Translations under genes and position numbers: made by a program
Assembly: GCA_964017235.1 (NCBI GenBank)
Contig: OZ024933.1
Coordinates: 60,432,255-60,496,254, forward strand
Reading direction: 5' to 3'
DNA length: 64,000 bases
Source of the DNA: Sabellastarte sp. h YS-2021
Taxonomy: Eukaryota > Annelida > Polychaeta > Sabellida > Sabellidae
Shown: positions 2,768 through 61,940 of the stretch, one piece after another
How positions within the stretch are numbered: the first letter of the stretch is position 1
Layout of the letters: each line of letters opens with the position of its first letter
The notes under the pieces: generated by a model
Databases searched by the model: none
What the model saw: the letters and a program-made list of their open reading frames with translations, nothing else
What the model was told of the DNA's origin: nothing

Positions 2768-3163
2768 AAAATCTGCAAAGATATAGCAAAGTACATAAAG
2801 GCACTAGAAAGTTATTTCAAACCAACACAATATGAGATTTACAAACAGTACATGTTCTACTCATGTGATGAAGGACCCAATGAAAATGTGGATCACTGGG
2901 TTATCAGACTGAGACAACTTTTAAAGTCTTGGAACTTTGAAGCAATGATTGACAGTTTGTTGAGAGACCAAGTGGTTGTGGGGATGAAATACAAGGCCGC
3001 AAGAGCACAGATGTTTAGAGAGAAGGTAGTCAATCTAAATAAAGCAGTTGACATGCTGAGAGCTAGTGAAGTAGCTGCTCAACATATAAAGGAGATTGAC
3101 CAAGGGACATCTGAGGAAGTGGTATCACTCTGCATTGTCCAGTACGCATCCACATCCTTGTGA
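2768..3163 (+). pseudogene. gag-like fragment of an LTR (Gypsy-type) retrotransposon
   Basis: An open stretch of about 130 codons starts right after a TAA at 2765 and ends in TGA. It contains ESYFKPTQYEIYKQYMFYS, then DHWVIRLRQLLKSWNF and a segment with RDQVVVGM and VDMLRASEVAAQHI. That order (F..R.Q...ES.D.F...L..L...C.F / RD.IV.G / L..A....R..E) is characteristic of invertebrate Gypsy gag capsid regions. No zinc knuckle, protease, reverse transcriptase or LTR was found next to it, so it is an isolated broken remnant. Confidence 0.6.
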
Positions 3164-3440: not shown

Positions 3441-4135
3441 GTTAATTAATTTTAATAAATTTTTAAAATAACTTTTTAATGCATTATAATTCATGAAATC
3501 ATGCACTAACTCACTTATAACTTAAAAAGTATTGCATTTACAGAATTTTGTTAAACTATGTTATTCAGCTACTTTTCCATAGCTACAACATGGTGAGTAA
3601 CTTCGGAACCTTTCCCAATAGCTAAGTGAGTATTAGCTACTTCCTGACTTTTCAGCAACTTCCATAATGAGTAAAAGTGCTTGTAAATTAAAAGCTATTG
3701 CATTTCCAGAATTGTGTTTAAATATGTTATTTGCCTACTTTTGGGTGAGCTATAACAGTAAAATTGTAGACCTGTACCTCATTGCATAGCTGAACAATAG
3801 CTACTTTCAGGTTCTCACTGTTGAGTAAATTGGTTGTAACTTGAAAACTATTACATTTAAAGTTTTTTTAAAATTTGTTATTCATCTACTTCAGGGTATA
3901 GCATAGTGACTCTGCAGAACTGTAGCTCGGTATTTTCGGGTTTTCACTGTGGAGTAAATCACTTGTAACTTGAAAACTATTTCATTTATGGAATTTTCTT
4001 TAAATATGTTATGCACCTACTTTTAGGCAGCTATAAGATAGTTAAATTTGCAGACCTATAGCTCATTGCATAACTGGGCAACCTGTGTGTCCTTTTATAC
4101 TTTCACTTCTACTTTGTAACTCAAAACACAGTAAG
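3441..4135 (+). repeat. S2 repeat, old diverged monomers
   Basis: About five monomers carry the S2 landmarks in order: TTATTCACCTACTTTTGGG, then GCAGACCTGTAGCTC, then TGAGCAATAGCTACTTT, then GAGTAAATCACTTGTAACT. The - strand of the 30.5-35.3 kb array has the same order, so this is an old relic of that family. Confidence 0.7.
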
Positions 4136-23182: not shown

Positions 23183-23339
23183 AACTAGAGATTGCGTCTC
23201 GATGCAGTGTATCCCCGGACGGGACATAGTTAAGGCGTGAATATGTCGGTCTTGAGCCTGTTTCCTGGAGCACCAGGTCAGGATTCTCCATAGTACCACA
23301 TTACTCCCAAAAGCTAATCACTAGTTTTTTCACTTATAT

Positions 23340-25185
23340 CTGTCTTTAAAAATTACATTTCATGGATCCAGAAGATCCATATAGTGATCCATATAGAAGA
23401 CCCAAATTCAATCATTTCATCCTTTTACCTTTTCAGACATTCTAAAAATTTCATCAAAATCTGTCCATAAGTTTTTTAGTTATCTTTTACACAAACACAT
23501 CTGGCAGCCTGGATCCACATGATCCAGACAGTGATCTAGATTACCCCCCAAAACTAATCACTTGTTCTTTGTCCCATTTAAGACATTTCCTGAAAATTTC
23601 ATAAAAATCCATCCATGACTTTTTGAGCTATTTGTATTTAAAAATTACATTTCTTGGATCCAGAAGATCCAGATAGTGGTCCAGATCACTCGCAAAATTG
23701 AATCATTTCTTCCCTTTACCACTTCTTCCTTTGACCATTTGTAACATGTCCTAAAAATATCAAAGTCCATCCCAAGATTATGTGGCAGCCTGGATCCAGA
23801 TGATCCAGACAGTGATCCAGATCACTCCCAAAATTTAATCACTTTTCCCTTGTACCATTTAGGCCATTTGCTGAAACGATCCATCCATAACTTTTTGCGA
23901 TATCTATCTTTAAAAATTACATTTCATGGATCCAGAAGATCCATATGGTGATCTGGATTACTTCCAAAATTCAATCATTTCATCCTTTTACCTTTTCAGA
24001 CATATCCTGAAAATTTCATCAAAATCCGTCCATAAGTTTTTGATTTATCTTGTACATAAACACATCTGGCAACCTGGATCCAGATGATCCAGATCACTCC
24101 CAAAATCTAATCACTTGTTTTTTGTCCCATTTAGGACATTTCCTGAAAATTTCATCAAAATCCACCCATGACTTTTTGAGCTATTTGTCTTTAAAATTAT
24201 ATTTCATGGATCCAGAAGATCCAGATAGTGGTCCAGGTCACTCGCAAAATTGAATCATTTCTTCCTTTTACCACTTCTTCCTTTTACCATTTCTAACATA
24301 TCCTAAAAATATCATCAAAATTCATCCTAAAATTCTGTTGCAGCCTGGATCCAGATGATCCAGATCACTCCAAAAATGTAATCACTTGTCCCTGGTACCA
24401 TTTAGGTAATTTGTTGAAAATGTCATCACAATCCATCCATAACTTTTTGAGGTATTTGTCTTTAAAAATTACATTTCATGGATCCAGAAGACCCATATAG
24501 TGATCTGGATCACTTCCAAAATCCAGCCATTTCATCCTTTTACCTTTTCAGACATATCCCGAAAATTTCATCAAAATCCATCCATAAGTTTTTCAGCTAC
24601 ATTGTACACAAACACATCTGAAAGCCTGGATCCAGATGATCCAGACAGTGATCCAGATCACTCCCAAAATCTAATCACTTGTTCCTTGCACCATTTAGGT
24701 CATTTGCTGAAAATGTTATCACAATCCATCCATAACTTTTTGAGGTATCTGTCTTTAAAAATTACATTTCATGGATCCACAAGATTCATATAGTGATCCG
24801 GATCACTTCCAAAATTCAATCATTTCATCCTTTTACCTTTTCAGACATATCCTGAAAATTTCATCAAAATCCGTCCATAAGTTTTTGATTTATCTTGTAC
24901 ACAAACACATCTGGCAGCCTGGATCCAGATGATCCAGATCACTCCCAAAATCTAATCACTTGTTCCTTGTCCCATTTAGGACATTTCCTGAAAATTTCAT
25001 CAAAATCCACCAGTGACTTTTTGAGCTATTTGTCTTTAAAAATTATATTTCATGGATCCAGAAGATCCAGATAGTGGTCCAGATCACTCGCAAAATTGAA
25101 CCATTTCTTCCTTTTACCACTTCTTCCTTTTACCATTTGTAACATATCCTAAAAATATCATCAAAACTCATCCTAAAACTTGAGG
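23340..25185 (+). repeat. S5 tandem array, ~150-bp monomers alternating in ~300-bp dimers
   Basis: Two monomer types alternate: one starts CATGGATCCAGAAGATCC, the other GCCTGGATCCAGATGATCC. Both continue with GTGATCCGGATCACTCCCAA and CTGAAAATTTCATCAAAATC. BamHI/Sau3A-type GGATCC/GATC sites are very dense. A short continuation lies at 26350-26870. Confidence 0.88.
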
Positions 25186-26345: not shown

Positions 26346-26889
26346 TTAATTATGTTGCAGCCTGGATCCAGATGATCCAGACAGTGATCCAGATCACTCC
26401 AAAAATGTAATCACTTGTTCCTTGTACCATTTAGGTCATTTGCTGAAAATGTCATCACAATCCATCCATAACATTTTGAGGTATCTGTCTTTAAAAATTA
26501 CATTTCATGGATCCAGAAGATCCATATAGTTTTGAGTTTTTGAGCTATATTGTACACAAACACATCTGGCAGCCTGGATCCGGATGATCCAGACAGTGAT
26601 CCAGATCACTCCCAAAATCTAATCTCTTGTTCCTCGTCCCATTAAGGACATTTCCTGAAAATTTCATCAAAATGCACCCATAAGTTTTTGAGTTATCTGT
26701 CTTTAAAAATTAAATTTCATGGATCCAGAAGATCCAGACAGTGATCCGGATCACTCCCAAAATTTAATCATATCTTCCTTTTACCATTTTGGACATATCC
26801 CTGAAAATTTTATCAAAATCCATCTGTCAGTTTTTGAGTTATCTTGTTCACAAACAAACAAACAAATAGAGGGCCAAAATTGACCCTCG

Positions 26890-27260
26890 GTCAGGTACTT
26901 TGGCGGTCAGTGGATGACCTTAAATGAAGATCTGTAACCGGTAAGCCTGGATGCTGGTACTCCATCATGTACTCAACCTCCAAAGCCATTTTCAATAGTT
27001 TCCATGCAATGTAGTCAGCATTAAGTGTGAAAATATCTCCAAATTTGCCAAAAATGACCCTTGGTCAGGTACTTTGGCGGTCAGTGGATGACCTCAAATG
27101 AAGATCTGTAACCAGTAAGCCTGGATGGTAGAAGTCCATCATGTACTCAACCTCCAAAGCCATTTTTAATAGTTTCCATGCAATATAGTCAGCATTAAGT
27201 GTGAAAATATCTCCAAAAAGGACCCTCGGTCAGGTACTTTGGCGGTCAGTGGATGACCTT
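26890..27260 (+). repeat. S7 repeat, ~170-bp monomers
   Basis: Two full monomers and part of a third are marked by TCGGTCAGGTACTTTGGCGG and CAACCTCCAAAGCCATTTTC. They lie immediately right of the S5 units in both composite copies. Open frames on the - strand through these units are repeat artefacts. Confidence 0.85.
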
Positions 27261-27613
27261 CAATGAAGAGCTTCAAGGTCAAATTTCTGCATGCTTACAG
27301 AGGACATACATATGTATTATATATACCAGCCATAGGATGATCTGACTTTCTGTATAGGAGAACTGGGCCAAAAAGTGAAAAAATGGCCATAATCTGACCT
27401 TTAAGAGGCCATCAGTGACCTTGAGATTTAAGGTCAAGGTCACAAAACAATAGCCTTCGTGGCATTGCCCATATATACCCACATACCACATTTGAAAGTT
27501 CTAACTAAAATATTTTTTAAGTTATCGCGTCCAAAAGGAAATCTCTGCGGCGGCGGCGGCGGCGTGACCGTACTGAATCCTAAGTATCCCCAACTTTCGT
27601 CCGGGGATACAAT

Positions 27614-29566: not shown

Positions 29567-29683
29567 TCAATGTTTACGGTTTCTCTGTGCATATTCTTCT
29601 GCTTTTTGCTCTCTCCACGCACAAATGTCGGCATACACACATTTCTGGCATTTCCACGCCTCCTCTATGTCCACCCCACACTC
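29567..29683 (-). CDS. EXO5: EXO5 exon 5, Fe-S cysteine cluster and stop (residues 360-397)
   Basis: The acceptor ATTACAG|GAG joins in phase 0 to exon 4. The exon encodes [12 protein letters not shown] and [12 protein letters not shown], giving the C-x2-C-x5-C set (Cys371, 374, 380) that completes the Fe-S cluster. It then runs through a charged tail to TGA at 29569-29567. It is only 38 codons long and sits beyond a 5.2-kb satellite-bearing element, so automatic annotation could easily miss it. Confidence 0.92.
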
Positions 29684-32600
29684 CTGTAATACGAATAGAA
29701 AATATCAGCTAGTTTCAACAGCAGTGTTCAAAGCTTCCACTGGCCTGGTGGTCTACATCTTTGAGGACTCCTTGGCCCAGTTGGCCAGTAAAATAACATG
29801 ATTAACAACAAGTAGAATTCTTCAATTTTAAAGAAATGAAAATAAAAACTTGCAATTTTTGTCCAGATTTCACCTCATGTTGCTAGCTTTTATTATGATC
29901 GCTCTTCATGACAAGCATTCAAAATGTTTCCGCTAACCCAAATGAAACAATATTCTGTACGAGGCTGTCTTACCAATCTTTATGATATGTTGTTTTGATC
30001 CATTTTGGTGTATTTTACGCTGATTGAGTGCATTTTCTATGCCATTAGTATAAATTTTATTAGCTTTTCTGATAGCTTTCTGGTGAAAATTCTTGGATAA
30101 ACCACTGGATGAAGCAACAGAGCAATTTGGTTGGTTAATGTACAAAAATAATAAAGGGAAAATGTTTCGATCGACAAGGCAATTCATTTTGATGATGATA
30201 AAAAATCATGCATTAACCAATGACCTTTGTTACTCTGATTATGAGTTGGAAGGCGAGTCTGATTATGGCTCTTTTAACTCTGAGACAGACATTGAAGATT
30301 TCGCATATGATGATATTACCTAAACATTGCATGTAAAATTATGTTGAAACAAGCATTCTGACGCATGCATTTATCTCCCGCCGTATAAATTAGATGTACT
30401 AAAGATAGTGGAATATAAATTTTCTTGTGAGATGGAGGCACATGTAGAAGTGACAACAAGTTTAATGTTTCATTGCAATATTTTTAAAGACAAAAGGCAT
30501 TTACTCACTTTAGTAGCTATTACTCTGCCATCCAAAGAGCTACAGTTCTGCAACTTCACTATGTGGTAGATCACCCAAAAGTAGGTGAATGACTTATTTA
30601 GAAGAAATTGCCTACCTGTAATACTTTTAGAGATAAAAGACATTTACTCATTTTAGTAGCTATTACTCAGCTATCCAAAGAGCTACAGTTCTGCAACTTC
30701 ACTATGTGGTAGATCACCCAAAAGTGCGTGAATGACTTATTTAGAAGAAATTGCCTACTTGTGATACTTTTAGAGATAAAAGACATTTACTCACTTTAGT
30801 AGCTATTACTCAGTTATATATCAGATCACCCAAAAGTAGATGAATGACTTATTTAGAAGAAATTGCCTACGTGTAATACTTTTAGAGATAAAAGACATTT
30901 ACTCATTTTAGTAGCTATTACTCAGCTATCCAAAGAGCTACAGTTCTGTAACTTCACTATGTGGTAGATCACCCAAAAGTAGGTGAATGACTTATTTAGA
31001 AGAAGTTGCCTATGTGTAACATTTTTAGAGATAAAAGGCAATTACTCATTTTGGTAGCTATTACTCAGCTATCCAAAGAGCTACAGTTCTGCAACTTCAC
31101 TATGTGGTAGATCACCCAAAAGTAGGTGAATGATTTATTTAGAAGAAATTGCCTACCTGTAATACTTTTAGAGATAAAAGACATTTACTCATTTTAGTAG
31201 CTATTACTCAGCTATCCAAAGAGCTACAGTTCTGCAACTTCACTAGGTGGTAGATCACACAAAAGTAGGTGAATGACTTATATAGAAGAAATTGCCTATG
31301 TGTAATATTTTTAGAGATAAAAGACATTTACTCATTTTGGTAGCTATTACTCAGCTATCCAAAGAGCTACAGTTCTGCAACTTCACTATGTTGTAGATCA
31401 CACAAAAGTAGGTGAATGATTTATTTAGAAGAAATTGCCTACCTGTAATACTTTTAGAGATAAAAGACATTTACTCATTTTAGTAGCTATTACTCAGCTA
31501 TCCAAAGAGCTACAGTTCTGCAACTTCACTATGTGGTAGATCACCCAAAAGTAGGTGAATGACTTATTTAGAAGAAATTGCCTACCTGTAATACTTTTAG
31601 AGATAAAAGACATTTACTCATTTTAGTAGCTATTACTCAGTTATCCAAAGAGCTACAGTTCTGCAACTTCACTATGTGGTAGATCACCCAAAAGTAGGTG
31701 AATGACTTATTTAGAAGAAATTGCCTACCTGTAATACTTTTAGAGATAAAAGACAATTACTCATTTTAGTAGCTATTACTCAGCTATCCAAAGAGCTACA
31801 GTTCTGCAACTTCACTATGTGGTAGATCACACAAAAGTAGGTGAATGACTTATTTAGAAGAAATTGCCTATGTGTAATATTTTTAGAGATAAAAGACAAT
31901 TACTCATTTTGGTAGCTATTACTCAGCTATCCAAAGAGCTACAGTTCTGCAACTTCACTATGTTGTAGATCACACAAAAGTAGGTGAATGATTTATTTAG
32001 AAGAAATTGCCTACCTGTAATGCTTTTAGAGATAAAAGATATTTACTCATTTTAGTAGCTATTACTCAGCTATCCAAAGAGCTACAGTTCTGCAACTTCA
32101 CTATGTGGTAGATCACCCAAAAGTAGGTGAATGACTTATTTAGAAGAAATTGCCTACCTGTAATACTTTTAGAGCTAAAAGACATTTACTCATTATTAAT
32201 AGGTATTACTCAGCTATCCAAAGAGCTACAGTTTTGCTACTTCTCTATGTGGTAGATGACCCAAAAGTAGGTGAATGAGTTATTTAGAAGAAATTGCCTA
32301 TCTGTAAAACTTTTAGAGATAAAAGACATTTACTCATTTTAGTAGCTATTACTCACCTATCCAAAGAGCTACAGTTCTGCAACTTCACTATGTGGTAGAT
32401 CACACAAAAGTAGGTGAATGACATATTTAGAAGAAATTGCCTATGTGTAATATTTTTAGAGATAAAAGACATATACTCATTTTGGTAGCTATTACTCAGC
32501 TATCCAAAGAGCTACAGTTCTGCAACTTCACTATGTTGTAGATCACACAAAAGTAGGTGAATGATTTATTTAGAAGAAATTGCCTACCTGTAATACTTTT

Positions 32601-35600
32601 AGAGATAAAAGATATTTACTCATTTTAGTAGCTATTACTCAGCTATCCAAAGAGCTACAGTTCTGCAACTTCACTATGTGGTAGATCACCCAAAAGTAGG
32701 TGAATGACTTATTTAGAAGAAATTGCCTACCAGTAATACTTTTAGAGATAAAAGACATTTACTCATTTTAGTAGCTATTACTCAGTTATCCAAAGAGCTA
32801 CAGTTCTGCAACTTCACTATGTGGTAGATCACCCAAAAGTAGGTGAATGACTTATTTAGAAGAAATTGCCTACCTGTAATACTTTTAGAGATAAAAGACA
32901 TTTACTCATTTTAATAGCTATTACTCAGCTATCCAAAGAGCTACAGTTCTGCAACTTCACTATGTGGTAGATCACACAAAAGTAGGTGAATGACTTATTT
33001 AGAAGAAATTGCCTACCTGTAATACTTTTAGAGCTAAAAGACATTTACTCATTATTAATAGGTATTACTCAGCTATCCAAAGAGCTACAGTTCTGCAACT
33101 TCTCTATGTGGTAGATGACCCAAAAGTAGGTGAATGAGTTATTTAGAAGAAATTGCCTATCTGTAAAACTTTTAGAGATAAAAGACATTTACTCATTTTA
33201 GTAGCTATTACTCACCTATCCAAAGAGCTACAGTTCTGCAGCTTCACTATGTGGTAGATCACACAAAAGTAGGTGAATGACATATTTAGAAGAAATTGCC
33301 TATGTGTAATATTTTTAGAGATAAAAGACATTTAGTCATTTTGGTAGCTATTACTCAGCTATCCAAAGAGTTACAGTTCTGCAACTTCACTATGTTGTAG
33401 ATCACACAAAAGTAGGTGAATGATTTATTTAGAAGAAATTGCCTACCTGTAATACTTTTAGAGATAAAAGATATTTACTCATTTTAGTAGCTATTACTCA
33501 GCTATCCAAAGAGCTACAGTTCTGCAACTTCTCTATGTGGTAGATGACCCAAAAGTAGGTGAATGAGTTATTTAGAAGAAATTGCCTATCTGTAAAACTT
33601 TTAGAGATAAAAGACATTTACTCATTTTAGTAGCTATTACTCACCTATCCAAAGAGCTACAGTTCTGCAACTTCACTATGTGGTAGATCACACAAAAGTG
33701 CGTGAATGACTTATTTAGAAGAAATTGCCTATGTGTAATATTTTTACAGATAAAAGACATCTACTCATTTTGGTAGCTATTACTCAGCTATCCAAAGAGC
33801 TACAGTTCTGCAACTTCACTATGTGGTAGATCACCCAAAAGTAGGTGAATGACTTATTTAGAAGAAATTGCCTACCTATAATACTTTTAGAGATAAAAGA
33901 CATTTACTCATTTTAGTAGCTCTTGCTCAGCTATCTACTCACTTAGCTATTGACCTACATCTGCAAAAGCAACAAAATATAAAGGACACAGGAAAGTAAG
34001 CTTTTGAAAAACTAGATGAATAACAAATGAAAAGATTTGCCTAACTTTGGTACTTGTGAAGGTATTTGACATTTATTTCCATCATAATTTTGTTAGAAAT
34101 AAGAAAATAGCTATTGCTCACTTATGACATGCAATGGAACCCCAAACGATATGCCATCTTATAGTCAAGGAAAAAGTAGCTGAACAAATTATTTTAGGAA
34201 AATCCTGTAACTGCAGTAGTTTTTGAGTTACAATGGATTTACTCAACAGTCACAATTTCAAAGTAGCTATTACTCAGCTATCCAACGACTCGGAACATGT
34301 CTAATGTCTTATGACTTATGCCTTATGAATTGGATGGTGTGCCTTAGAATCCGTTGATACGGAGATTAAGCACGTGGACAACTGATTGATTGATTGATGT
34401 GCAACAGGTTTGCAGCTTTACTATCTGATAGCTCATCAAAAACTAGATGAATAACATATTTGAAAATATTTCCCTAACTTGAATACTTTTGAAGATATTT
34501 GAAATTTACTTACGTTGTTATTTTGCTACAAATAAGAAAATAGCTATTACTCACTTATGGCATGCAACAGAACCCCAAACTATATGCCATCTTATAGTTT
34601 AGGAAAAAGTAGCTGAATAACATATTTTAGGAAAAGACTCTAACTGCAATAGTTCTGGAGTTACAATGGATTTACTCAACAGTCACAATTTCAAAGTAGC
34701 TATTACTCAGCTATCCAATGTGCAACAGGTCTGAAACTTTACTATGTGATAGCTTATCAAAAACTAGATGAATAACATATTTGAAAAGAATTCCCTAACT
34801 TTAATACTTTTGAAGATATTTGACATTTACTGATGTCATTATTTTGCTACAAATAAGAAAAAAGCTATTACTCACTTATGGCATGCAATAGAACCCCAAA
34901 CTATATGCCATCTTATAGTTAAGGACAAAGTAGCTGAACAACATATTTTAGGAAAATACTCTAACTGCACTAGTTTTGGAGTTAGAATGGATTTACTCAA
35001 CTGTAGAATTTCAAAGTAGCTATTACTCAGCTATCCAATGTGCAACAGATCTGAAACTTTACTATGTCACAGCTTATCAAAAAGTAGATGAACAACATAT
35101 TTGAAAAGAATTCCCTAACTTTAATACTTTTGAAGATATTTGACATTTACTGATGTCATTATTTTGCTACAAATAAGAAAATAGCTATTACTCACTTATG
35201 GCATGCAATGGGACCCCAAACTATGTACCATCTTATAGCTAAGGACAAAGTAGCTGAACAACATATTTGAAGAAAAAGTTGTAACAGACATACTGCAATA
35301 GTTTTGGAGTTATGAGCCCTTTACTCCAAGTAGCTGAGATTGCTATTACTCACTTATCTTTAGGCTAAAGTCCATAAAACCAAAAAAATTTTCGAGGGCG
35401 TGAAAATTCATTGGGACAATTAATTTACTAAAAATCTGTAGCTGTAGTAGTTTTGGAGAAATCTGCGTGACTAACTAACGCACGCACGCACACACGCACG
35501 CACGTACAGACCCCCGCACACACAGGCATCATTTCATAATCTCCCTCCCGGGCTAAAGCCCGGCGGGAGATAAAAAGGCATTTTCAATTGTTTCACACCT

Positions 35601-38600
35601 CTCATTTGCTACAAGTAATGATATCTTTAAAGCTGTGAAGTATGTTGAATAAAAAATAATTTGATTTTCATTTGTAAATGTCTTCATTTTTAAGTCTTAA
35701 AATTTGGCCAGCAACTTTTCAATTGGGCGATTAACTTTTTCAGGTTGCTGGCCTTGTTGGCTGGACTGACATCTGAGCTTATCATATCTTGTCTATTAGG
35801 AATCCTTATTACCTCTGCCACAGAGGTAATATTTTGGGTGGCGTACAATGTCTGTTTATTAGTCTGTTAGTTTGCAAAATAATTTCAACAGTTATGGGTG
35901 GATTTTGATAAAACTTTCTGGATATGTCGACAATTGCACAACAAACAGATGGTTCAATTTGGTAGTGATCCGGGTCTGGATCATTACTATCCGATGCTAA
36001 AAATCACACCAGATTTTTGGTGTGAAAAATTCAGTAATATTGTATCCTGAATTTCTGATGATTTCTCCAATCATGGTATGGAAATTCAACTGAGATTTGA
36101 ATACTGATATCAAATTCTACTTTTATTTTGCTTATCAAATGATATCAAAAGTTTGTTACATGTCATAAAATGCAAGTTTTGCAGCTAATGAACCCTCAGT
36201 TACCAAAAAAAGTTCTGTCAACAAATAAAATACACAAAAGTAACTATGAATGTGACACAAGTTGGCTATAAAAGTAATCAAAATTTTTCAAAATATATAT
36301 TGTGTAAGAATACCGATGATTGAATTAAAGAAAACTGATAAACTGTAGCAATATACTTTTTTAAATTCTACCTGACAGGTACTGGAAACGCTATTATTAA
36401 AAATGACACCTATAGTATCAATATTGAAATTCACAGAGCTAGATTGATATCTATACTGAGCTATTGATTAATGATTCCTTCCCTAGCCAACTATTATAAA
36501 TTTCTAACTGGAAAAGGTGAGAAAATCAAGATAACACGGTACGACTACTTGTTGACTGCTTTATCACTATTTCTGCTGTTGTTTCTGCATACTTACCTTT
36601 CTATTACCTTTCCAGTATTCTACATAATGTAGGAACTTCTCCTTCAACATCTCCTCATTAAAAGGCACACTTTTAACTGCGATGGTTGACTTGTCCTCTT
36701 GATAGCAGTACTCAATCAGCATCTGAGAGATACAGGGGATGCTCTGCATTCTACTAAATAACCTGTCCAATAACAATCTCAAGTTAACACTGTCAAGCCC
36801 TTGCTTCTCTGAGTGAGATTTCACCCCTTCACCAAGCTCTTTGTCTAATTTGAGATGTAAATGTTTCACGATGTCCTCCTGTGAGATTTGCCCAGTAATG
36901 AGGTCATCAAACAGCTTCTTGTAAATCATGACTTGCAGGTGATGTGTAAGTTCCTGAGGTTTCGATGGCAAGCTGTTGAAATTCCTGGTTTTAAACTCTA
37001 GGAGGTCAAGGTCAAATGTATCTGGGTCGCAGCGGATTTCATCAATCATTCCTGAAATCAAAAACATATGTTCTTATGAATGTTAAAGATGACAGCAAAC
37101 TAGATAATACTTACTTGATTATATACCAAATATTAATAGTGATCGCAAAATTTCTCAGCCAATTTTCCAAAAAAGGCATATTTTTACACTGAAATATTAG
37201 AATATTGTGCTTACACATTAAACACTGTTTTTTATTATATTTTGTCAAAATTTTCACTTATAGTAAGACTGCATTTTACACTCAGAGTTAGAGAAAACTA
37301 GGGCAGGGTCGGTAACACCGGTATCTCAGTATCGAGACCAATTCACTTCAACAACATGGTGACACTTTACAGCCGGTATTTCGAATGTCAGTATATAATA
37401 TTGTGAGAAAACGTAAAGTATAAGAAACTAACCTCAAATCTGAAGAAATTATTAACTTTTATCCAATATTTTTACATATTTTATCACTTTTATAGTGATT
37501 TCCTTAAGAACTTCAATGTTTTCTTTTCGCAAAACTTACTTCCGTTTGGTGGGCCTATTTGATTGGGAATATGCTAGCATGCAATTTCTTCTTTCGGTAT
37601 CCCGGAATCAGTACACTGGCGGGATACCGAAATGAAAAATCTGCTACCGACCCTGCCCTAGACAAAACTGAAGGAAAATTATTTTTACAGTTTTTCTTTC
37701 AATTAGTATTTTATATTTTATTTATTTATTTACTTATGAAACAATGCGATAAAGATCAAAGAAGTTAGGCGTTCTTGTGGACGGTATGTTTTATAAAGCA
37801 CTACAATTAATGGTTTCTGAGAATGTGTAAAACTGTGTAATATTACCCACGCTAGACATGCATTATATGTACAGAGTGCCAGTAGGGAGACAAGATTTCA
37901 GTTCTGTTTATCCGGAGATTCAGATTATAGAGGGCTGGATAATTGAAGTTCTACTGTACTTATAAATGATGCTAAAATACATGCATCTGATAGTATTTTC
38001 TTTGGTTCTTTTTAGTCAAACTGAAAACACCCATTTTTCTTTTGTTAAGTATATATAAAATGGTTAACTGATCTGAATAATATATTTCTCTGCTCTTGAA
38101 TAAGCATGGGTCTGTGATGCTTGCATATCAGGGCTATTTTACTGAAAACTGACAATGAAAAATAATTACTCGCATGTCAGTTGTCAGCACATAAAATGCT
38201 GCAGTATCTTAAACTGTGAGAAATAGACATTAATATATTAAATAAATTGTCTCATTTCTTTGAGGTTTCATCTTCCATTTTATGAGTATGCTATGTTTTC
38301 TCAAACTCCAAGTCCTGTTATTGGACAATCTCAATTCGGCCAAACCATAACTCATCTTTTGGATCACATACATCTATGGTTGTGGGTGGTGTACAAAATT
38401 TACTGGAAAACTTTCCAGATCCACTGGACATGCAACACAAAAATGTTACTGGTGAGTCTGTGGCAAACTTTGCTAGTCTATATGTCAGTGTAGGTTAAAT
38501 TAATATCTAGTTTTAACAATGACCAAGTGGCAAGTGTTAAAGAAAAAAATGGTTCTCTGTTATTTTCCATATTGGCAACTTTTGTCATTCACGGGTGAAA

Positions 38601-41600
38601 AGTACTTGTACTTGTACTTAAGTACTTTGATGAAAAAAGGACTTGTATTTGTGCTTGTAATCGAAAATTAACAAAGTACTTGTACTTGTACTTTTAAGTA
38701 CATTTCAATGTACTTGACCCCAACCCTGTTGGCAAGAATGTCTCTAATGGTGACCCTTGTCCAAAAATAATTTTTGGTGCTTAACAAGAAAAAAAAATCT
38801 ATGAACTATTCTCTTAAATTGCATAATATCTGGACCTTTAACTCAAGAAAGCTCCATGTCCGTGAGACTATTTACCAGTCTTGGACGGGGTGGGTGGGGG
38901 GGGATAGGTGTTAATTTCGTACACTGATTCACTGGGTGTGAATCCCTCACAATACAATGTGTAGCAACTAGCAAGTACTGGATGCCTGTCTCATTCATGA
39001 TCCTAGCTCTGATAACTTGGGCATAAGACCCCAACTTTGACTTTTAACATACCGATTATAAAGACATCTTGCCCAAATGGGGCCCCAAAGATGGGTATTT
39101 CCCGACGTACGGGAATTCCCTGCAAAAAACTCTCTACTGCACCCAGTAGGTTGAGAACTTTCACAGCAAAAATGTCTTCATCAGAAGTGACCTTCACCTG
39201 AACAATGTCTTGAACCTCAAGCTCTACAAACAGAATGATATATAAAGTATACTTTAATTTTTTTTTAAATGTTATTATATTGTACTTTTAATTTTTGAAA
39301 GAAAGATATAGTTCAGTTATATTACTGTCACGTCTTACACTTTTATTTAAATGTGACATTATTGTCACTATTCAAGAAAGCACTTTGTTTTTTTTCAATG
39401 AAGGGATTAAATGCTCAAAAACTATCCAGTACAACATTCATAAATAATAAATTATTTGTTGCTTACTTTGAAATGTTGGTAATATATTTATTGTGCAACT
39501 GATATTTGGCCTTCTTAACAATAACAACTTTAGTTTTACATGCCTATTAAATCACAAAAAAATACTTCACTGTCCTTGGCATAAGTAGTTTACATATCAG
39601 TGATTGTTTAACTATGATCAGGATATCCGTAATATATGCAGTTTCATGTTTACCTTTCTTCATTAATCATTCATGTCAAATATTGTGGTCATCAAGTGCA
39701 CACTTAAAGGTGCTTTGATTTCCTGGGATATGCATCCATGTAAGATTAACACACCATATACATTGCATACATTATGATTATATAAACATCAATAAGCTTT
39801 TATTTGACAAATGAGTCAACCATGGTTCCAAAAACTAATTATAATTTTAGAAAGGCTCTCTGTTGTTAACTTGCTGGGAGAAGGAAATTTTGAAAACAGA
39901 ATGTCCACAGAATAGAAGATGTATCTTACTGTAAAACACTTACACATATTATCACTTTAGGAGTGGGGAACCCACAGCAAAACTGTAGTTTTAGTCAAAT
40001 AGTTAAGTAATAGATATTAAGACATCAGATGTTCTCATGTTTTGCTGCTGTAAATAGCTCTTAAGCTTAGGTATAAATGTCTTACAATCACCTTTTAAAA
40101 ATAATCACTATTATTTGGTACCTTCCTTTTCATCATTTTCACTGAGATTTTATGCATGAGCAATTATGAAAAAAACACTAATATTAATCTTGTCAATACA
40201 ATCATTACAACTAGAGATTGCGTCTTGACGCAGTGTATCCCCGGACGGGACATAGTTAAGGCGTGAATATGTCGGTCTTGAGCCTGTTTCCTGGAGCACC
40301 AGGTCAGGATTCTCCATAGTACCAGATTACTCCCAAAAGCTAATCACTAGTTCTTTCACTTATATCTGTCTTTAAAAATTACATTTCATGGATCCAGAAG
40401 ATCCATATAGTGATCCGGATCACTTGCAAAATTCAATCATTTCATCCTTTTACCTTTCAGACATATTCTAAAAATTTCATCAAAATCTGTCCGTAAGTTT
40501 TTTAGTTATCTTGTACACAAACACATCTGGCAGCCTGGATCCACATCATCCAGACAGTGATCCAGATTACTCCCAAAAACTAATCACTTGTTCGTTGTCC
40601 CATTTAAGACATTTCCTGAAAATTTCATAAAAATCCATCCATGACTTTTTGAGCTATTTGTCTTTAAAAATTACATTTCTTGGATCCAGAAGATCCAGAG
40701 AGTGGTCCAGATCACTCGCAAAATTGAATCATTTCTTCCTTTTACCACTTCTTCCTTTTACCATTTGTAACATATCCTAAAAATATCAAAGTCCATCCCA
40801 AGATTATGTGGCAGCCTGGATCCAGATGATCCAGACAGTGATCCAGATCACTCCAAAAATTTAATCACTTGTTCCTTGTACCATTTAGGCCATTTGCTGA
40901 AACAATCCATCCATAACTTTTTGCGGTATCTGTCTTTAAAAATTACATTTCATGGATCCAGAAGATCCATATAGTGATCCGGATCACTTCCAAAATTCAA
41001 TCATTTCATACTTTTACCTTTTCAGACATATCCTGAAAATTTCATCAAAATCCGTCCATAAGTTGATTTATCTTGTACATAAACACATCTGGCAGCCTGG
41101 ATCCAGATGATCCAGATCACTCCCAAAATCTAATCACTTGTTCCTCGCACCATTTAGGTCATTTGCTGAAAATGTCATCACAATCCATCCATAACTTTTT
41201 GAGGTACAGTAGAACCTCACTTATCCGAACCCCATGGGAGACATACAATCCGGCCGGATAATCGAGGGGTTCGGATAGATGAAGGAAACCGGAATTCACG
41301 GTCTATGGGTTACCCAGTGGGCGATAATTGAAGAATTGTCGTTTTTATGCAATAAACATAGACGTTGGTGGTCCTTAATAAAATAATTTAATATTTTTGT
41401 GTCATATAATATAAGTGACCCTTCAGTTGTCGTTTATTTGCTCCATATCCATGGATATTATATTATTTTTATTTAAAATATTACGCGGACTTGAGCTGGT
41501 TGTGTTCGGTTGGTACTTGCATTGTTAACGTTTTAATTTTAGATTAACATCATCCCGCATATTGTCAATTAAAAAACTCCGGGAGATTATTTATTGTAAA

Positions 41601-44600
41601 ACCCCAAGCGAACACGCCTTCAGTGATACGCGTTTGATTGGTAATGCATTGTTGACGTCTTTTCTTTTCTACACGTTGTCATTCTGTGGACCTACTCCGG
41701 AAGATTATAAATTGCGAAACCCAATCGAACACACTTTCATTGATTGGCGCATTATCAAAGAAGTTGTGTAGCGGGGTCGTGTTATTGAATTAATCCCTCC
41801 CCTATTGTAACAATGGTGATAAAGATGAAAGAAGTTAGGCGTCTCTGTGAATGGTACGTTTTATAAGCACTGGAATTCATCGTTTCCGAGACTGTGTAAA
41901 ATCTTGTATTATCGCTCACGCTTGACCGTGTTTTATATGTAGGAAGACATGATTTCGGTTCGGTTAATCCGGAGATTCGGATAATAGAAGGCCGGATAAC
42001 CGAGGTTCTACTGTATCTGTCTTTAAAAATTACATTTCATGGATCCACAAGATCCATATAGTGATCCGGATCACTTCCAAAATTCAATCATTTCATCCTT
42101 TTACCTTTTCAGACATATCCTGAAAATTTCAAAAAATCCGTCCATAAGTTTTTGATTTATCTTGTACATAAACACATCTGGCAGCCTGGATCCACATGAT
42201 CCAGATCACTCCCAAAATCTAATCACTTGTTCCTTGTCCCATTTAGGACATTTCCTGAAAATTTCATCAAAATCTACCCATGACATTTTGAGCTATTTGT
42301 CTTTAAAAATTATATTTCATGGATCCAGAAGATCCAGATAGTGGTCCAGATCACTCGCAAAATTGAACCATTTCTTCCTTTTACCACTTCTTCCTTTTAT
42401 CATTTGTGACATATCCTAAAAATATCATCAAAATTCATCCTAAAATTATGTTGCAGCCTGGATCCAGATGATCCAGACAGTGACCCAGATCACTCCAAAA
42501 ATGTAATCACTTGTTCCTTGTACCATTTAGGTCATTTGCTGAAAATGTCATCACAATCCATCCATAACTTTTTGAGGTATCTGTCTTTAAAAATTACATT
42601 TCATGGATCCAGAAGATCCATATAGTGATCCGGATCACTTCCAAAATTCAACCATTTCATCCTTTTACCTTTTCAGACATAACCTGAAAATTTCATCAAA
42701 ATCCATCCATAAGTTTTTGATTTATCTTGTACATAAACACATCTGGCAGCCTGGATCCAGATGATCCAGATCACTCCCAAAATCTAATCACTTGTTCCTC
42801 ATCCCATTAAGGACATTTCCCAAAAATTTCATCAAAATGCACCCATAAGTTTTTGAGTTATCTGTCTTTAAAAATTAAATTTCATGGATCCAGAAGATCC
42901 AGACAGTGATCCGGATCACTCACAAAATTTAATCATATCTTCCTTTTACCATTTTGGACATATCCTGAAAATTTTATCAAAATCCATCTGTCAGTTTTTG
43001 AGTTATCTTGTTCACAAACAAACAAACAGAGGGCCAAAAATGACCCTCGGTCAGGTACTTTGGCGGTCAGTGGATGACCTTAAATGAAGATCTGTAACCG
43101 GTAAGCCTGGATGCTGGTACTCCATCATGTACTCAACCTCCAAAGCCATTTTCAATAGTTTCCATGCAATGTAGTCAGCATTAAGTGTGAAAATATCTCC
43201 AAATTTGCCAAAAATGACCCTTGGTCCGGTACTTTGACGGTCAGTGGATGACCTTAAATGAAGATTTGTAACCAGTAAGCCTGGATGGTAGAAGTCCATC
43301 ATGTACTCAACCTCCAAAGCCATTTTCAATAGTTTCCATGTAATATAGTCAGCATTAAGTGTGAAAATATCTCCAAAAAGGCCAAAAATGACCCTCGGTC
43401 AGGTACTTTGGCGGTCAGTGGATGACCTTCACTGAAGAGCTTCAAGGTCAAATTTCTGCATGCTTACAGAGGACATATATATGTATTATATATACCAGCC
43501 ATAGGATGATCTGACTTTCTGTATAGGAGAACTGGGCCAAAAAGTGAAAAAATGGCCAAAATCTGACCTTTAAGAGGCCACCAGTGACCTTGAGATTGAA
43601 GGTCAAGGTCACAAAACAATAGCGTTCGTGGCATTGCCCATACATACCCACATACCAAATTTGAAAGTTCTAACTAAAATATTTTTTAAGTTATCGCGTC
43701 CAAAAGGAAATCTCTGCGGCGGCGGCGGCGTGACCGTACTGAATCCTAAGTATCCCCGACTTTCGTCCGGGCATACAATTCTAACAAAAAGGCTTGTTAC
43801 TAGACTTCAAGTCCTTTTGTCTAAGGTATTATATGAGGACTCTATGAATTTTTTACCAGAATGTGGGGCTGACAAAAGTTGTATTTTATCTCTGACAGTA
43901 ATATCCCCACCCATTTGTGGATTCAAAATGATTCCATGTATGTCAGATTTGGTGGAATAAGAAATACAAAGACTTGGAGCAAGTCTAGCTTGTTACAGGT
44001 TATACAGAAATACAAATGCGTAAATTTTAGTGTTATTTTCAGAAAAGAAAAAAAACTCAGGGGAAAAACTGTAAACCTTCTGGTTACAAGTCATCTGCTT
44101 TTAAACCAAGAGGAGAAATCCCTGGCAAATAAATGTAATTACATGTAACTGTGCTGATATATATTACAACATACAAAAAATTTTACCTCTGGCCAGATGA
44201 AGTTCAGACCCTGCAGTAATTTCTGGTTTTTCCACTACTTCTACTGGTACAGTGAAGTTGTAAACCATCTGCTGTTCACACCAGCTCTGTGACAGCAAAT
44301 CAGACACCCACAGATAGCGACGGCGAAATGTTTGCATTGGAGGACTACAAATGCCATTAGCTTGATTAATATCGAACCCTGTCATTTTGTATTCATGTTT
44401 TGCATTAGTTTTATATCTGTTTATACATACGTGGCATTTTCCTTTCAAAACTGTTTTTTTTCCATCAAATTTTAAACGGTTAACTTCTGGGTATTCATAA
44501 GCAACTTTCATGTTTCTAAACAAAGGTTGGATATGGGATGATATGGCATTAATGCAGGAAAGACCTGAATGTTACAACAATATGACCAAGCTCCCGACAT

Positions 44601-58262: not shown

Positions 58263-60396
58263 ATTGACACAATCTTAACTATTGAAACAGATGTAAAACC
58301 CTATCTTTAACTGTTGCACTTGTGATAAACATGTCTATAAGTTTCTTCATACTGGTAATCCAAAACATTTTGATGCAGATATTTGTCCTTACAATATTCA
58401 GTCTGTGCAATATATACTAGATAGTTTCAAGAAGTCAAGATGACAGTAAACTTCTTGTGATTCCAGAGTTTTGATCATCGCTTCATAAATCAATATAAAC
58501 ATTTAGCTTATAGCTGTGCTTCTGATGAACCTACAGTGTGGAGTCAGTTTCCTTGAGATTTGTTCCTCCTTTTATTGCCTCCTTTAAGACGAAAATGCAG
58601 TCTTCTTTCTAAAAGCCTTTTCCCTGCCGTGTCTTTTCCAATCCTGCATCACAAAAGTGACTGACCTTTTTTCTTCATCCCTGTTTCTTGAAATTGGTAT
58701 TTGTTCTTGTTCATCACAACTTGGTCTTTTTATTAGTGTAGATTGAGTGCTATGAAAGCTGTTTAGAGTTAGAACACAGGACAGATAGAAAATTTGAGAC
58801 AGAACACGAGCAATGTTTCAGCGGCATATTTACTGATACAGTTACTTAATACATCCCCCTTTTCAGCCTTATTTTCAAGTTAAACAGCAAACCCTTTCAA
58901 TTCAAATATTAAAGGACCTGAATAATATGTCTCTCTATTATTATTTCAAGAATACACCAATATATGCATTAAATGTTAAATGTAATCTGCTCTCATATAC
59001 TTGTTATGAATAGATAGGTATTCTAATTGGACCAGCTGTCCTTAAATTTGACTAAGTCTTATTTATATAGATGTTATCCATTTATCATTATGCCTGGCTT
59101 ATATGCTGTCTATTTTGCCCGATTTCACATATTGGTAAATCAATTTGTGTGTCTTTTCCTATGGTAATTTGTCTAATCTACCATATCTACTCTTTTTAGT
59201 TTGTGGAAATTAACCAAATATAAACCCATATCGGAGTCCCATTCAATGTACTGCACTAGCACAGGTAGTCACTTAATAATACACATGCAGTCAATTTCAT
59301 TGAACACTGACAGGTTAATTTTTCAAGGGTTATCCACTCGATTTAGAAGTGGCTTGTCCCATAAATCAGGATCGCTAATAGTATTACTTTGATGGCTGTG
59401 GTTAATCTGGCAAGCCAAATGATCTATAATGATATTAGTTATATTTTTTCTTGCTGATAAGAAGAATTATTGCTACTGGGACTGTCGAGTTCAGTAACAT
59501 AATATATTGGGGTTTAACTCTTATAGCTTGTTATATAAATTTGTTTATTGGTTTTGTTAGTAGACTTTTTTTCCTTTACATAACATTTTGGTGCCTTAGA
59601 TATTGAGATTTGATTGTACAATGTCTGTGTGAAGAAATGACCTGATTACATAACTTGTCTTTCAAATATTTATCTTCTTATAAATGACAGCTAAACTTCA
59701 ATTATCCAAATATAAAAATGTGTACCTTGAAAAAAAAAAACAGTATTAAACTTAAATTTGTTGGGTCTTATTGTTTCTTGGTATTTTTATTTACAAATGC
59801 TACCTTCTCAAAAAATTTGGATAGTTGAAGTTTTAGTAGAATGTTATTAATTTTGTGTGTAAAAGTGGAGTCCAGTTGAAAAATTTCACATAATTGCGAA
59901 ATAAAATTTTAAAAAAAGAAAGTCATTTTTTTCAGTTGACTGCAGGGTCAACTTAGAATGACATAGGTTTCATGATCATGGGTAAATTCTACTAAGTAAT
60001 TTTTCAGTTCTAAATCTTTTAGGAAGAAATCTAGAATGTCATTCAACTATGGAATATAGCCTTGTATCACCCTTCACTTAAACCCAAGAGATTTAATCCT
60101 ACAGTTCTGGAACAAAGTAAAACATAGTTGTCAACTGCTATCAGACATTGATAATAGTGAATGCTCTTTGCAATCAAAGTTTATTTAAATTAGTTTGTAT
60201 TCACCTTTGTTGTCACATGATCAAATTCAGTGTATGACAGCATGTGGGATTTACAGGGAGCCTATTCCAATGTGGCCTTCACTCTTAAAAAGGACATTAA
60301 ACCCTAACTGTGACCTTGTACTAACCACAAAATAACAGATAGGACTGAGGCATTAAATATCTTGTAACAATCTAACCCATCAGGTATATATTATCT
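58263..60396. other. Intergenic, no gene seen
   Basis: A weak LINE-tail trace (GATTGAGTGCTATGAAAGCT then GTTAGAAC) is present near 58740-58775. The rest is AT-rich. Confidence 0.45.
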
Positions 60397-60619
60397 CCCG
60401 CCCGGCTCGCCACAATTTCTCTCAAATACGTTGGTCATCTACTTTTTTGTGAACTGTAACATATTTAAGTTTTACAACTGTTGCTCAGTGTACAAGTGAG
60501 TAATGGCTACTTTATTGCTACTTTAAGTGAAAATGTGTAAAATCACAAATATCTCGCAAACCGTAAGAGATAGAGCAATTTCGAGCAAATTTTTGACCCA
60601 TAGGGTAGTACAAGAGTAT

Positions 60620-60671
60620 TCTAATTCTAATTGGACTTTTATAGCGCTTAATCTCTGTCATAAAGACAGAC
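60620..60671 (-). mobile_element. 52-bp LINE tail insertion with 5-bp target duplication
   Basis: The S3 repeat should read ...AAGAGTATCC.... Here a 52-bp insert splits it: - strand TGTCTGTCTTTATGACAGAG, then ATTAAGCGCTATAAAAG and TTAGAATTAGA. It is flanked by AGTAT on both sides (60615-60619 and 60672-60676). This is an extremely 5'-truncated copy of the LINE family seen at 8304 and 57955. Confidence 0.75.
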
Positions 60672-61070
60672 AGTATCCTATGCTAAGGGGCAAAATTTCA
60701 ATTTTCGCTACTTTTGGCGGCTACTTTTGAGTGTAATAGCACTTTTACCTAATATGACTTAAATAACTCTCAGACTATTGCATTTAGAGTATTTTGTTCC
60801 AATATGTTGTTGAGCTACTTTCTCCACAGCTACAACATGGTCAGTAGTTTGGTGTATCTCCATAGCTAAGTAAGTAATAGCTACTTTGTCAATTTTTAAT
60901 GATAACCATAATGAGTAAATGGCATATATCTTCAAAAGTATTGCAGCTACACAATTTCTCTCAAATATGTTGTTCATCTACTTTTTTGTGAAGTGTAACA
61001 TATTTAAGTTTCACAACTGTTGCTCAATGTACAAGTGAGTAATGGCTACTTTATTGCTACTTTAAGTGAA

Positions 61071-61690
61071 AATGTGAAAAATCACAAATATCTCTAAACC
61101 GAAAGAGATAGATCAATTTCGAGCGAATTTTTAACCCAAAAGGTAGTACAAGATTATCCTATGCCGAGGGGAAAAATTTCAATTTTTGCCACATTTGGCG
61201 GCCATCTTGGATTTTAGCGGAAAATGAAAAAGTGGGAATATCTCGAAAACCTTAAGAGATAGAGCGATTTCGAGCGAATTTTTGACCCACAGGGTAGTAC
61301 AAGAGTATCCTATACAAAGGGAAACATTTCAATTTCGCCACTTTTGGCGGCCATCTTGGATTTTGCAGAAAATGAAAAAGTGTGAATATCTCGAAAACTG
61401 TAAGAGATAGAAAGATTTCGACCGAATTTTTGACCCACAGGGTAGTACAAGAGTATCCTGTGCAAAGGGGAAAAATTTCAGTTTTTGCCACTTTTGGCGG
61501 CCATCTTGGATTTTAGTGGAAAATAAAACATTGAAAATATCTTCGAAATGGTAAGAGATAGAGCGATTTTGAGCGAATTTTTGACCCGCAGGGTAGTACA
61601 ACAGTATTCTGTGCCTAGGGGAAAAATTTCAGTTTTCGCCACTTTTGGCGGCCTTCTTGGATTTTAGCAAAAAATGAAAAATTGTGAATA
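61071..61690 (+). repeat. S3 tandem repeat, ~145-155-bp monomer
   Basis: Four monomers are marked by AAGAGATAGAGCGATTTCGA, CCCACAGGGTAGTACAAGAG and TTTTGGCGGCCATCTTGGAT. The overlapping - strand frames here are repeat translations. Confidence 0.85.
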
Positions 61691-61940
61691 TCTCGGAAAA
61701 GGTATTTATTCCCCTTTGATGCTCAGCGGGAGATACACACTGCGGCAGTGGTCTTGTTTTAGCAGAATATTTTTTTTTAAGGTGAAATAACAAGGGTTTA
61801 CTTTTCATAAATTCTTGGATTCCTGATAAAGCTTTTGTGTCAAAGTCCATATGGATAAGAACAAAAGCACTTAAAGAGAGCACACCTCTGCCAAGACAGG
61901 TAATAATAACTAAACAGGAAAAATCTGGAATATTTTTTTT

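Follow-up and report, generated by a model that had tools for sequence, protein, structure and literature searches.

A 64,000-nucleotide stretch of the genome of the annelid Sabellastarte sp. h YS-2021 (GenBank assembly GCA_964017235.1, contig OZ024933.1, our C7:60432255-60496254; hereafter the window) holds the gene EXO5 on its minus strand, and in the last intron of that gene lies a 5.2-kb unit rich in tandem repeats. A first-pass annotation of the window had described this unit as mobile-looking and left its ends without a superfamily; they can now be placed with the Helentrons. The unit is very probably a non-autonomous Helentron (HINE) with satellite-like arrays as its cargo, of a class already known and best described from bivalves, that of Pearl and Cg_HINE. 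Searches were made in the whole 1.786-Gb assembly of 647 contigs, in which individual loci carry labels of the form L010.

The gene was identified with the Pfam profile PF09810, which matches minus-strand frames at 44164-44571 and 36567-37070 above its cut-off and a third frame, at 39003-39287, below it (20.5 of 25 bits). A putative last exon at about 29567-29683, with splice sites read by eye, is presumed to belong to EXO5 by its likeness to EXO5 C-termini. The unit falls inside the intron that follows from these exons, in agreement with its first placement. From the 5' end it consists of a subterminal inverted repeat (subTIR), an inverted repeat, a GTGC microsatellite, an array of 321-bp units, an array of 143-bp units (S2) and a 3' module ending ..GCTTG/TT, where the slash marks the element's end (Table 1). 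The DNA at the insertion site (window 30087-30323 on the plus strand, and 35575-35694) is itself a repeat with genome-wide relatives, and a 78-aa frame adjoining it has no Pfam match.

Table 1. Features of the element and of related loci in the window (Tandem Repeats Finder, TRF)
Feature	Position	Strand	Basis
Whole element, 5,225 bp, very probably a non-autonomous Helentron (HINE); 5' end 35574, 3' end 30350	30350..35574	minus	boundaries from copies at other loci and empty sites
5' subTIR TTTATCTCCCGCCG	35561..35574	minus	word occurs once in each orientation in window; same in other copies
5' hairpin (subTIR and its inverted repeat)	35539..35571	minus	DNA fold -13.9 kcal/mol, z -4.7
GTGC-type microsatellite of 5' module	35478..35524	minus	TRF; equivalent position in other copies
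321-bp-unit array, 2.7 copies	34397..35276	minus	TRF, blastn
Diverged extra 321-bp unit	33999-34283	minus	TRF, blastn
S2 array, 143-bp unit, about 24 copies	30477..33935	minus	TRF; 40-mer genome count
3' (RF) module	30350..30476	minus	978 candidate places; 40 scored, itself included, at 96-100% identity
3' subTIR CGGCGGGAGATAAA	30370..30383	minus	window word search and comparison of copies
Short 3' palindrome GCAT..ATGC, 4-5 bp stem	30353..30368	minus	read off sequence
Last intron of EXO5, holding the element	29684..36596 (approx.)	minus	Pfam PF09810; exon ends read by eye
Second HINE-like element, same subTIR core, 151-bp array, different 3' palindrome	60391..61756	plus	TRF, word searches
Paralogous empty site of the L010 copy (174-bp repeat region)	43267..43521	minus	joined-flank match

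Ends, insertion sites and class

The perfect 14-bp inverted repeat reported in the first-pass annotation is present: within the window, TTTATCTCCCGCCG has a single match, at 30370, and so does its reverse complement, at 35561. By itself this repeat was rejected as evidence of mobility, since about four such pairs are expected by chance within 5.3 kb in the window. What exceeds chance is the recurrence of the 14-mer, with 2,932 exact matches in the genome versus 10 for the reversed word. Comparison of eight other matches to the word and of 20 fetched stretches distinguished two types of end. The 5' type (window 35574, minus strand) runs on as TTTATCTCCCGCCGGGCTTTAGCCCGGGAGGGAGATTA and then into the GTGC microsatellite, and the 3' type (window 30350) reads ..CGGCGGGAGATAAATGCATGCGTCAGAATGCTTG and is followed by host TT. 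In the copies compared, the two ends are alike in the subTIR alone and differ in all else. With up to three mismatches, a 48-mer of the 5' end is found at 3,000 genome places and a 36-mer of the 3' end at 3,737 (reversed controls, 0 for each), counts that are not directly comparable because the words differ in length. An exact 20-mer of the 5' end gave 0 matches in viral contigs.

Both boundaries were set by the other copies. On the 3' side, 39 scored copies outside the window stop at query 128-146, where the element ends at query 127; on the 5' side, 41 rows from outside the window, among 1,998 candidates, begin at query 56-68, where the element starts at query 67. The right edge originally given to the unit, 35574, is thereby retained, and the left edge, 30370, is moved by 20 bp, as it is the internal 3' subTIR and copies elsewhere extend 20 bp further. 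The GC-rich end hairpin was also verified on the 5' side, where 0 of 200 shuffles folded as well. The subTIR pair, perfect over 14 bp, falls within the 11-15 bp or so of subterminal inverted repeat that characterizes HINEs. Also characteristic of them are an inverted repeat and a microsatellite following the 5' subTIR, and the GTGC run is present in the window and in most copies examined.

The flanks agree with the T-rich or TT insertion without target duplication that is a further mark of HINEs. All 26 unique 3' flanks start with TT, and 19 of the 22 unique 5' flanks end with it; the three exceptions belong to ends of the second HINE-like family. The joined flanks of the window copy are spanned well by seven loci at 73-81% identity; in the five of these that were aligned, the junction lies in or beside a T-run, with no target duplication. 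The joined flanks of the copy at L010 match a region of the window itself at 229 of 258 positions, so that the site can be read as GGCCTTTTTGGAG when empty and as GGCCTT/element/TTGGAG when filled, again with no duplication. Three more window copies of the repeat at this site cross the junction at 86-88%. This 174-bp tandem repeat lies at window 26873-27269 and 43032-43438, and its surroundings form the paralogous empty site. The exact cut inside a T-run cannot be fixed for HINEs in general (PMC4067079), nor can it here. Of the two things to be looked for in the flanks, empty sites were therefore found and a target duplication was not, its absence being expected for the Helentron class.

These same ends and sites bear on whether the unit might be a cut-and-paste terminal-inverted-repeat transposon, a miniature inverted-repeat transposable element (MITE) with a satellite core and the 14-bp repeat as its terminal inverted repeat. 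Such an element would be non-coding, of high copy number and bounded by a perfect inverted repeat near both ends, as is the unit, and Pearl elements were initially described as MITEs. Pearl was later re-classed as a non-autonomous Helentron (PMC7492417, PMC5139131). The MITE explanation is very improbable, however, in that the 3' end lies 20 bp beyond the inverted repeat, the ends differ except for the subTIR, no duplication is seen at the empty site of L010 or at the five that were aligned for the window copy, and composite copies, described below, take their 5' end from an outer element and their 3' end from an inner one.

Helentron-type proteins are encoded in the same genome. A profile search with PF14214 gave 24 places, six of which hold a Rep motif of the RGSPH type, the Helentron-type motif (PMC4067079). 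Three near-identical Rep loci (98.6-99.4% over long shared stretches) have a long open frame, of 2,245 aa at the locus on C3, that holds Helitron_like_N and PIF1, and they carry the RGSPH motif as well. On its 5' side this three-locus family has a GGGTTG-type subTIR, a GTCC microsatellite and tandem repeats of about 167 bp. On its 3' side it terminates in ..CCCTCTTG, and the next two bases are TT in two copies and TA in the remaining one. The Helentron family has its layout and a terminal CTTG in common with the window element and with the window's second family (..GGTCTTG), but not its subTIRs. L24_25 and L032 match by blastn at 98% over 813 bp; this was considered as a link to a partner and provisionally set aside as a third-party repeat in both, because it is located beside the Rep domain and not within it.

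The assignment to the HINEs rests on the asymmetric ends, the thousands of end copies, the single orientation of the arrays, the TT flanks, the empty sites without target duplication and the presence of Rep-PIF1-endonuclease Helentrons in the genome. Canonical Helitrons have a CTRR 3' end and insert between A and T. A canonical Helitron in place of a Helentron would share the asymmetric ends, the lack of target duplication and the Helitron-type Rep domains found in the genome, but the ends here are TTTATC..CTTG and not 5'-TC..CTRR-3', insertion is between TT and not A-T, and the succession of subTIR, inverted repeat and microsatellite is the HINE layout (PMC7492417). The ends of Helraiser, a reconstructed bat Helitron, are 5'-TC/CTAG-3' (PMC4778049). 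We regard a canonical Helitron as hardly credible for this unit.

Satellite arrays within the element

Both end types surround the same arrays in 12 copies (the window copy and 11 others), which span 3.1-13.7 kb end to end. The usual order from the 5' end is the 5' module, the 321-bp array, a 133-bp and/or 143-bp array, and the 3' module. Exceptions are L24_25 and L12_13, which are rearranged or contain inserts, and L22_23 (L022/L023), in which a 169-bp array replaces the 321-bp one and is accompanied by a 133-bp array of 73.8 copies and a 143-bp array of 15.1. The units are related, at 83% over 103 bp between the 133- and 143-bp units and at about 70-77% in parts with the 321-bp unit, and to judge by this similarity all three probably come from one ancestral unit within the element lineage. 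At L012/L013, where 12 kb separate the ends, a nested insert lies inside the HINE, with long frames that by eye resemble a DIRS-like reverse transcriptase and a tyrosine recombinase; this insert was accordingly rejected as a Helentron.

In the window, TRF divides S2 into 2.4 and 21.8 copies, with one unit cut to 112 bp, in line with the 24 or so monomers first counted. The higher-order units of about 858 bp that had also been proposed are upheld in part, in that the array looks like a partial 859-bp duplication pattern more than a homogenised higher-order repeat. Mean identity is 0.963 between monomers six apart and 0.9625 ten apart, versus 0.9425 between neighbours (18 aligned monomers; permutation p = 0.043), which amounts to a weak 858-bp higher order.

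Association of the satellite with the ends extends well beyond the window. An S2 40-mer with up to three mismatches has 13,576 genome places (control, 0). Linkage was assessed from exact places on C1 only: of the 100 S2 places listed, 94 were used (reaching to 57.2 Mb), along with all 100 end places listed. The first-pass annotation had called for ends that recur with S2, and 19 of the 28 S2 clusters so sampled have a correctly oriented exact 14-mer end within 10 kb, where shifted clusters gave a mean of 0.42 and a maximum of 10 over 2,000 shifts. Of these 19, 15 have a 3'-type end at 271-722 bp, and within 2 kb of the 28 clusters there are 0 ends in the wrong orientation. In the 20 fetched stretches, S2 matches all point one way relative to the ends, among the matches listed.

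The position of a monomer within its array is also informative. When monomers are counted from the 3' module and compared between 14 copies, those of the same ordinal are 0.940 identical, versus 0.908 for different ordinals. For the terminal monomer the values are 0.960 versus 0.848, and the excess shrinks to 0.918 versus 0.912 by the seventh monomer. This analysis used the 14 of 20 copies with S2 beside the 3' module (L22_23, L24_25, L12_13, L020, L021 and L009 were excluded for mixed, nested or very long arrays), and a matrix of all 20 copies agrees for the terminal monomer (0.951 versus 0.80-0.84). Such ordinal-specific similarity is consistent with arrays carried along by the element, at least in the part adjoining the 3' module.

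An alternative, which can partly coexist with transport by the element, is that S2 is an ordinary satellite expanding in place, the element having merely seeded the array and transposition having played a minor part in its spread. Local array expansion does also occur: for 54 of the 69 monomers of L22_23, where the 133-bp unit is present nearly 74 times, the nearest relative is another monomer of that copy, and mean within-copy identity exceeds between-copy identity in 20 of 24 copies. The nearest relative lies in the same copy for only 11 of 24 monomers in the window copy, and for none in nine of 24 copies, a weak test since the other copies form a far larger pool (monomers under 130 letters, 95 of 443, were excluded). 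Together with the ordinal-specific similarity between copies and the tie of 19 of 28 clusters to ends, this makes expansion in place rather unlikely as an account of S2. Spread of satellite cargo by transposition, as was originally suggested, is supported by the recurring ends, the linkage of S2 to them, the empty sites and the ordinal-specific similarity of monomers.

A mechanism can be proposed in outline. A Helentron protein supplied in trans would nick the 5' end, and one strand would be copied through the arrays by rolling-circle replication until copying halts at the 3' palindrome and CTTG, whereupon the copy would be joined into TT. The array would move with the element and its length might later be altered by unequal exchange or slippage, and the T-runs in 133-bp units may double as landing sites, leading to nested elements. 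Head-to-tail dimers might be a trace of rolling circles, and a single exact candidate joint of HINE 3' and 5' ends was found in the genome, at C7:62972531-62972557 with 3 bases between.

Several observations weigh against a satellite-carrying HINE. The predicted fold of the 3' palindrome is no more stable than that of shuffled sequence (z -0.18, with 75 of 200 shuffles doing as well), and the 3' subTIR lies 20 bp from the end, versus 38-60 bp in mite HINEs (PMC4067079). Nine of the 28 S2 clusters have no exact end nearby; these may have mutated ends or may be free arrays. The Exo_endo_phos match on the long Helentron frame is just below the curated cut-off (24.0 of 24.5 bits). The 24 Rep loci with 1.5-kb flanks hold no TATCTCCCGCC ends, one mismatch being allowed. 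The autonomous partner with the same ends that the first-pass annotation had proposed to look for was not found; one Helentron family, that of the three near-identical loci, was followed to its ends, and its subTIR is different. Finally, rolling-circle copying was not itself observed.

Composite elements

In four copies (L010, L011, L017 and L019) a mini-HINE of 266-281 bp, in which a 5' module is fused to a 3' module, comes after the 133-bp array. The four share the junction CAGATAGCCAATT/TTTATCTCCC, each terminates with the inner 3' end, and their host flanks all differ. The HINE insertion point lies in a T-run of the 133-bp unit, CCAATT^TTTCTCAAAT. The empty site of L010 shows that everything between the outer 5' end and the inner 3' end was moved as one piece. 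The junction word, with up to two mismatches, is found at 192 places (control, 0), at least 100 of them exact. Given that the L014-type junction differs from this word by two, some of the 192 places may represent plain nesting. For the 15 exact junction places on the first 114.6 Mb of C1, an exact 3' end follows 249-266 bp on in 11, a distance that corresponds to the inner mini-element.

HINEs at other loci also lie in this T-run of the 133-bp unit, as is seen in both flanks of L012/L013 and, at L014-L016, in the three 5' flanks listed and in three 3' flanks out of four, and L062 has a 3' flank that matches such an insertion. The cluster L014-L016 (C1:16972100-16998000) has four HINE 5' ends and then four 3' ends, all in one orientation, and its 3' units repeat at 3,049 bp, the first two being 99.9% identical over 3 kb. 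Either serial self-nesting or amplification of half-elements could have generated this cluster.

The simplest reading of the composites is nested insertion into the element's own satellite, followed by transposition in which copying stopped at the first 3' terminator that it reached, with loss of the outer 3' module. Alternatively, the outer 3' part may have been deleted before the element was mobilised, and all composites may come from one founder. It is proposed, tentatively, that the satellite could serve both as cargo and as landing pad and so generate new composite transposons that move as one unit. If true, repeated rounds of nesting could ratchet up the satellite and explain clusters such as that at C1:16972100-16998000.

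Neighbouring repeats and known relatives

The second HINE-like element of the window begins with TTATCTCCCGCC, contains 4.1 copies of its 151-bp unit at 61087-61704 and ends with AGCGGGAGATACACACTGCGGCAGTGGTCTTG followed by TT. Its 3' 33-mer has 6,584 genome places (control, 0). L027 and L023 have 3' ends similar to it, the end at L023 being followed by AC and not TT. Arrays at window 23336-25119, 40363-41203 and 42014-43020 consist of an apparently different repeat of 136-145 bp that contains GATCCAGATCACT, with dimer periods of 272-285 bp by TRF.

The closest counterpart of the window element in layout is Cg_HINE of Crassostrea gigas, which has a 5' subTIR, inverted repeat and microsatellite, a 3' subTIR and palindrome, and a central satellite-like array in one orientation, with two consecutive arrays in two elements (PMC7492417). 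Cg_HINE also inserts at TT without duplication, is found in introns and has not been linked to an autonomous partner (PMC7492417). The present family differs in its three related arrays (321, 133 and 143 bp), its copies of up to 13.7 kb and its composite subfamily; one copy holds about 74 copies of one unit, where the longest array in the Cg_HINE survey has 29.3 (PMC7492417). Pearl, of the bivalves Crassostrea virginica and Anadara, is likewise non-coding, with a core of satellite-related tandem repeats of about 160 bp, but its arrays are described as reaching up to six repeats (PMC7492417, PMC5139131). DINE-1/HINE elements of Drosophila, mites and Culex share subTIRs of 12-15 bp and a T-rich target without duplication; they also have a 3' palindrome, of which the short GCAT..ATGC of the window element may be the counterpart, and that class has autonomous Helentron partners (PMC4067079), whereas none with matching ends was found at the Rep loci searched here.

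The composites resemble the use of an alternative terminator documented for Helraiser, in which the 5' end is essential and the 3' hairpin terminator can be bypassed or replaced (PMC4778049). Helraiser is a canonical Helitron, however, and new ends in it are located downstream of the original (PMC4778049). In the composites, by contrast, the 3' end comes from a copy nested in the element's own satellite. A review describes Helitron/satellite loci of oyster that are shuffled and nested, as well as arrays in plants in which several 5' ends accompany one 3' end, so that nesting itself is not new (PMC12628747). The top-ranked literature matches listed include no publication on this very element. 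In the literature examined, no description was found of a composite with an outer 5' and an inner 3' end together with its empty site, which is the most novel part of this work.

Such composites constitute a natural experiment on the start and stop points of copying. The visible inverted repeat did not coincide with the 3' boundary, and therefore satellites bounded by a short inverted repeat deserve to be tested for HINE structure. Scattering of satellite-like DNA by elements of very probable Helentron type can be seen here within one genome, with the aid of its empty sites.

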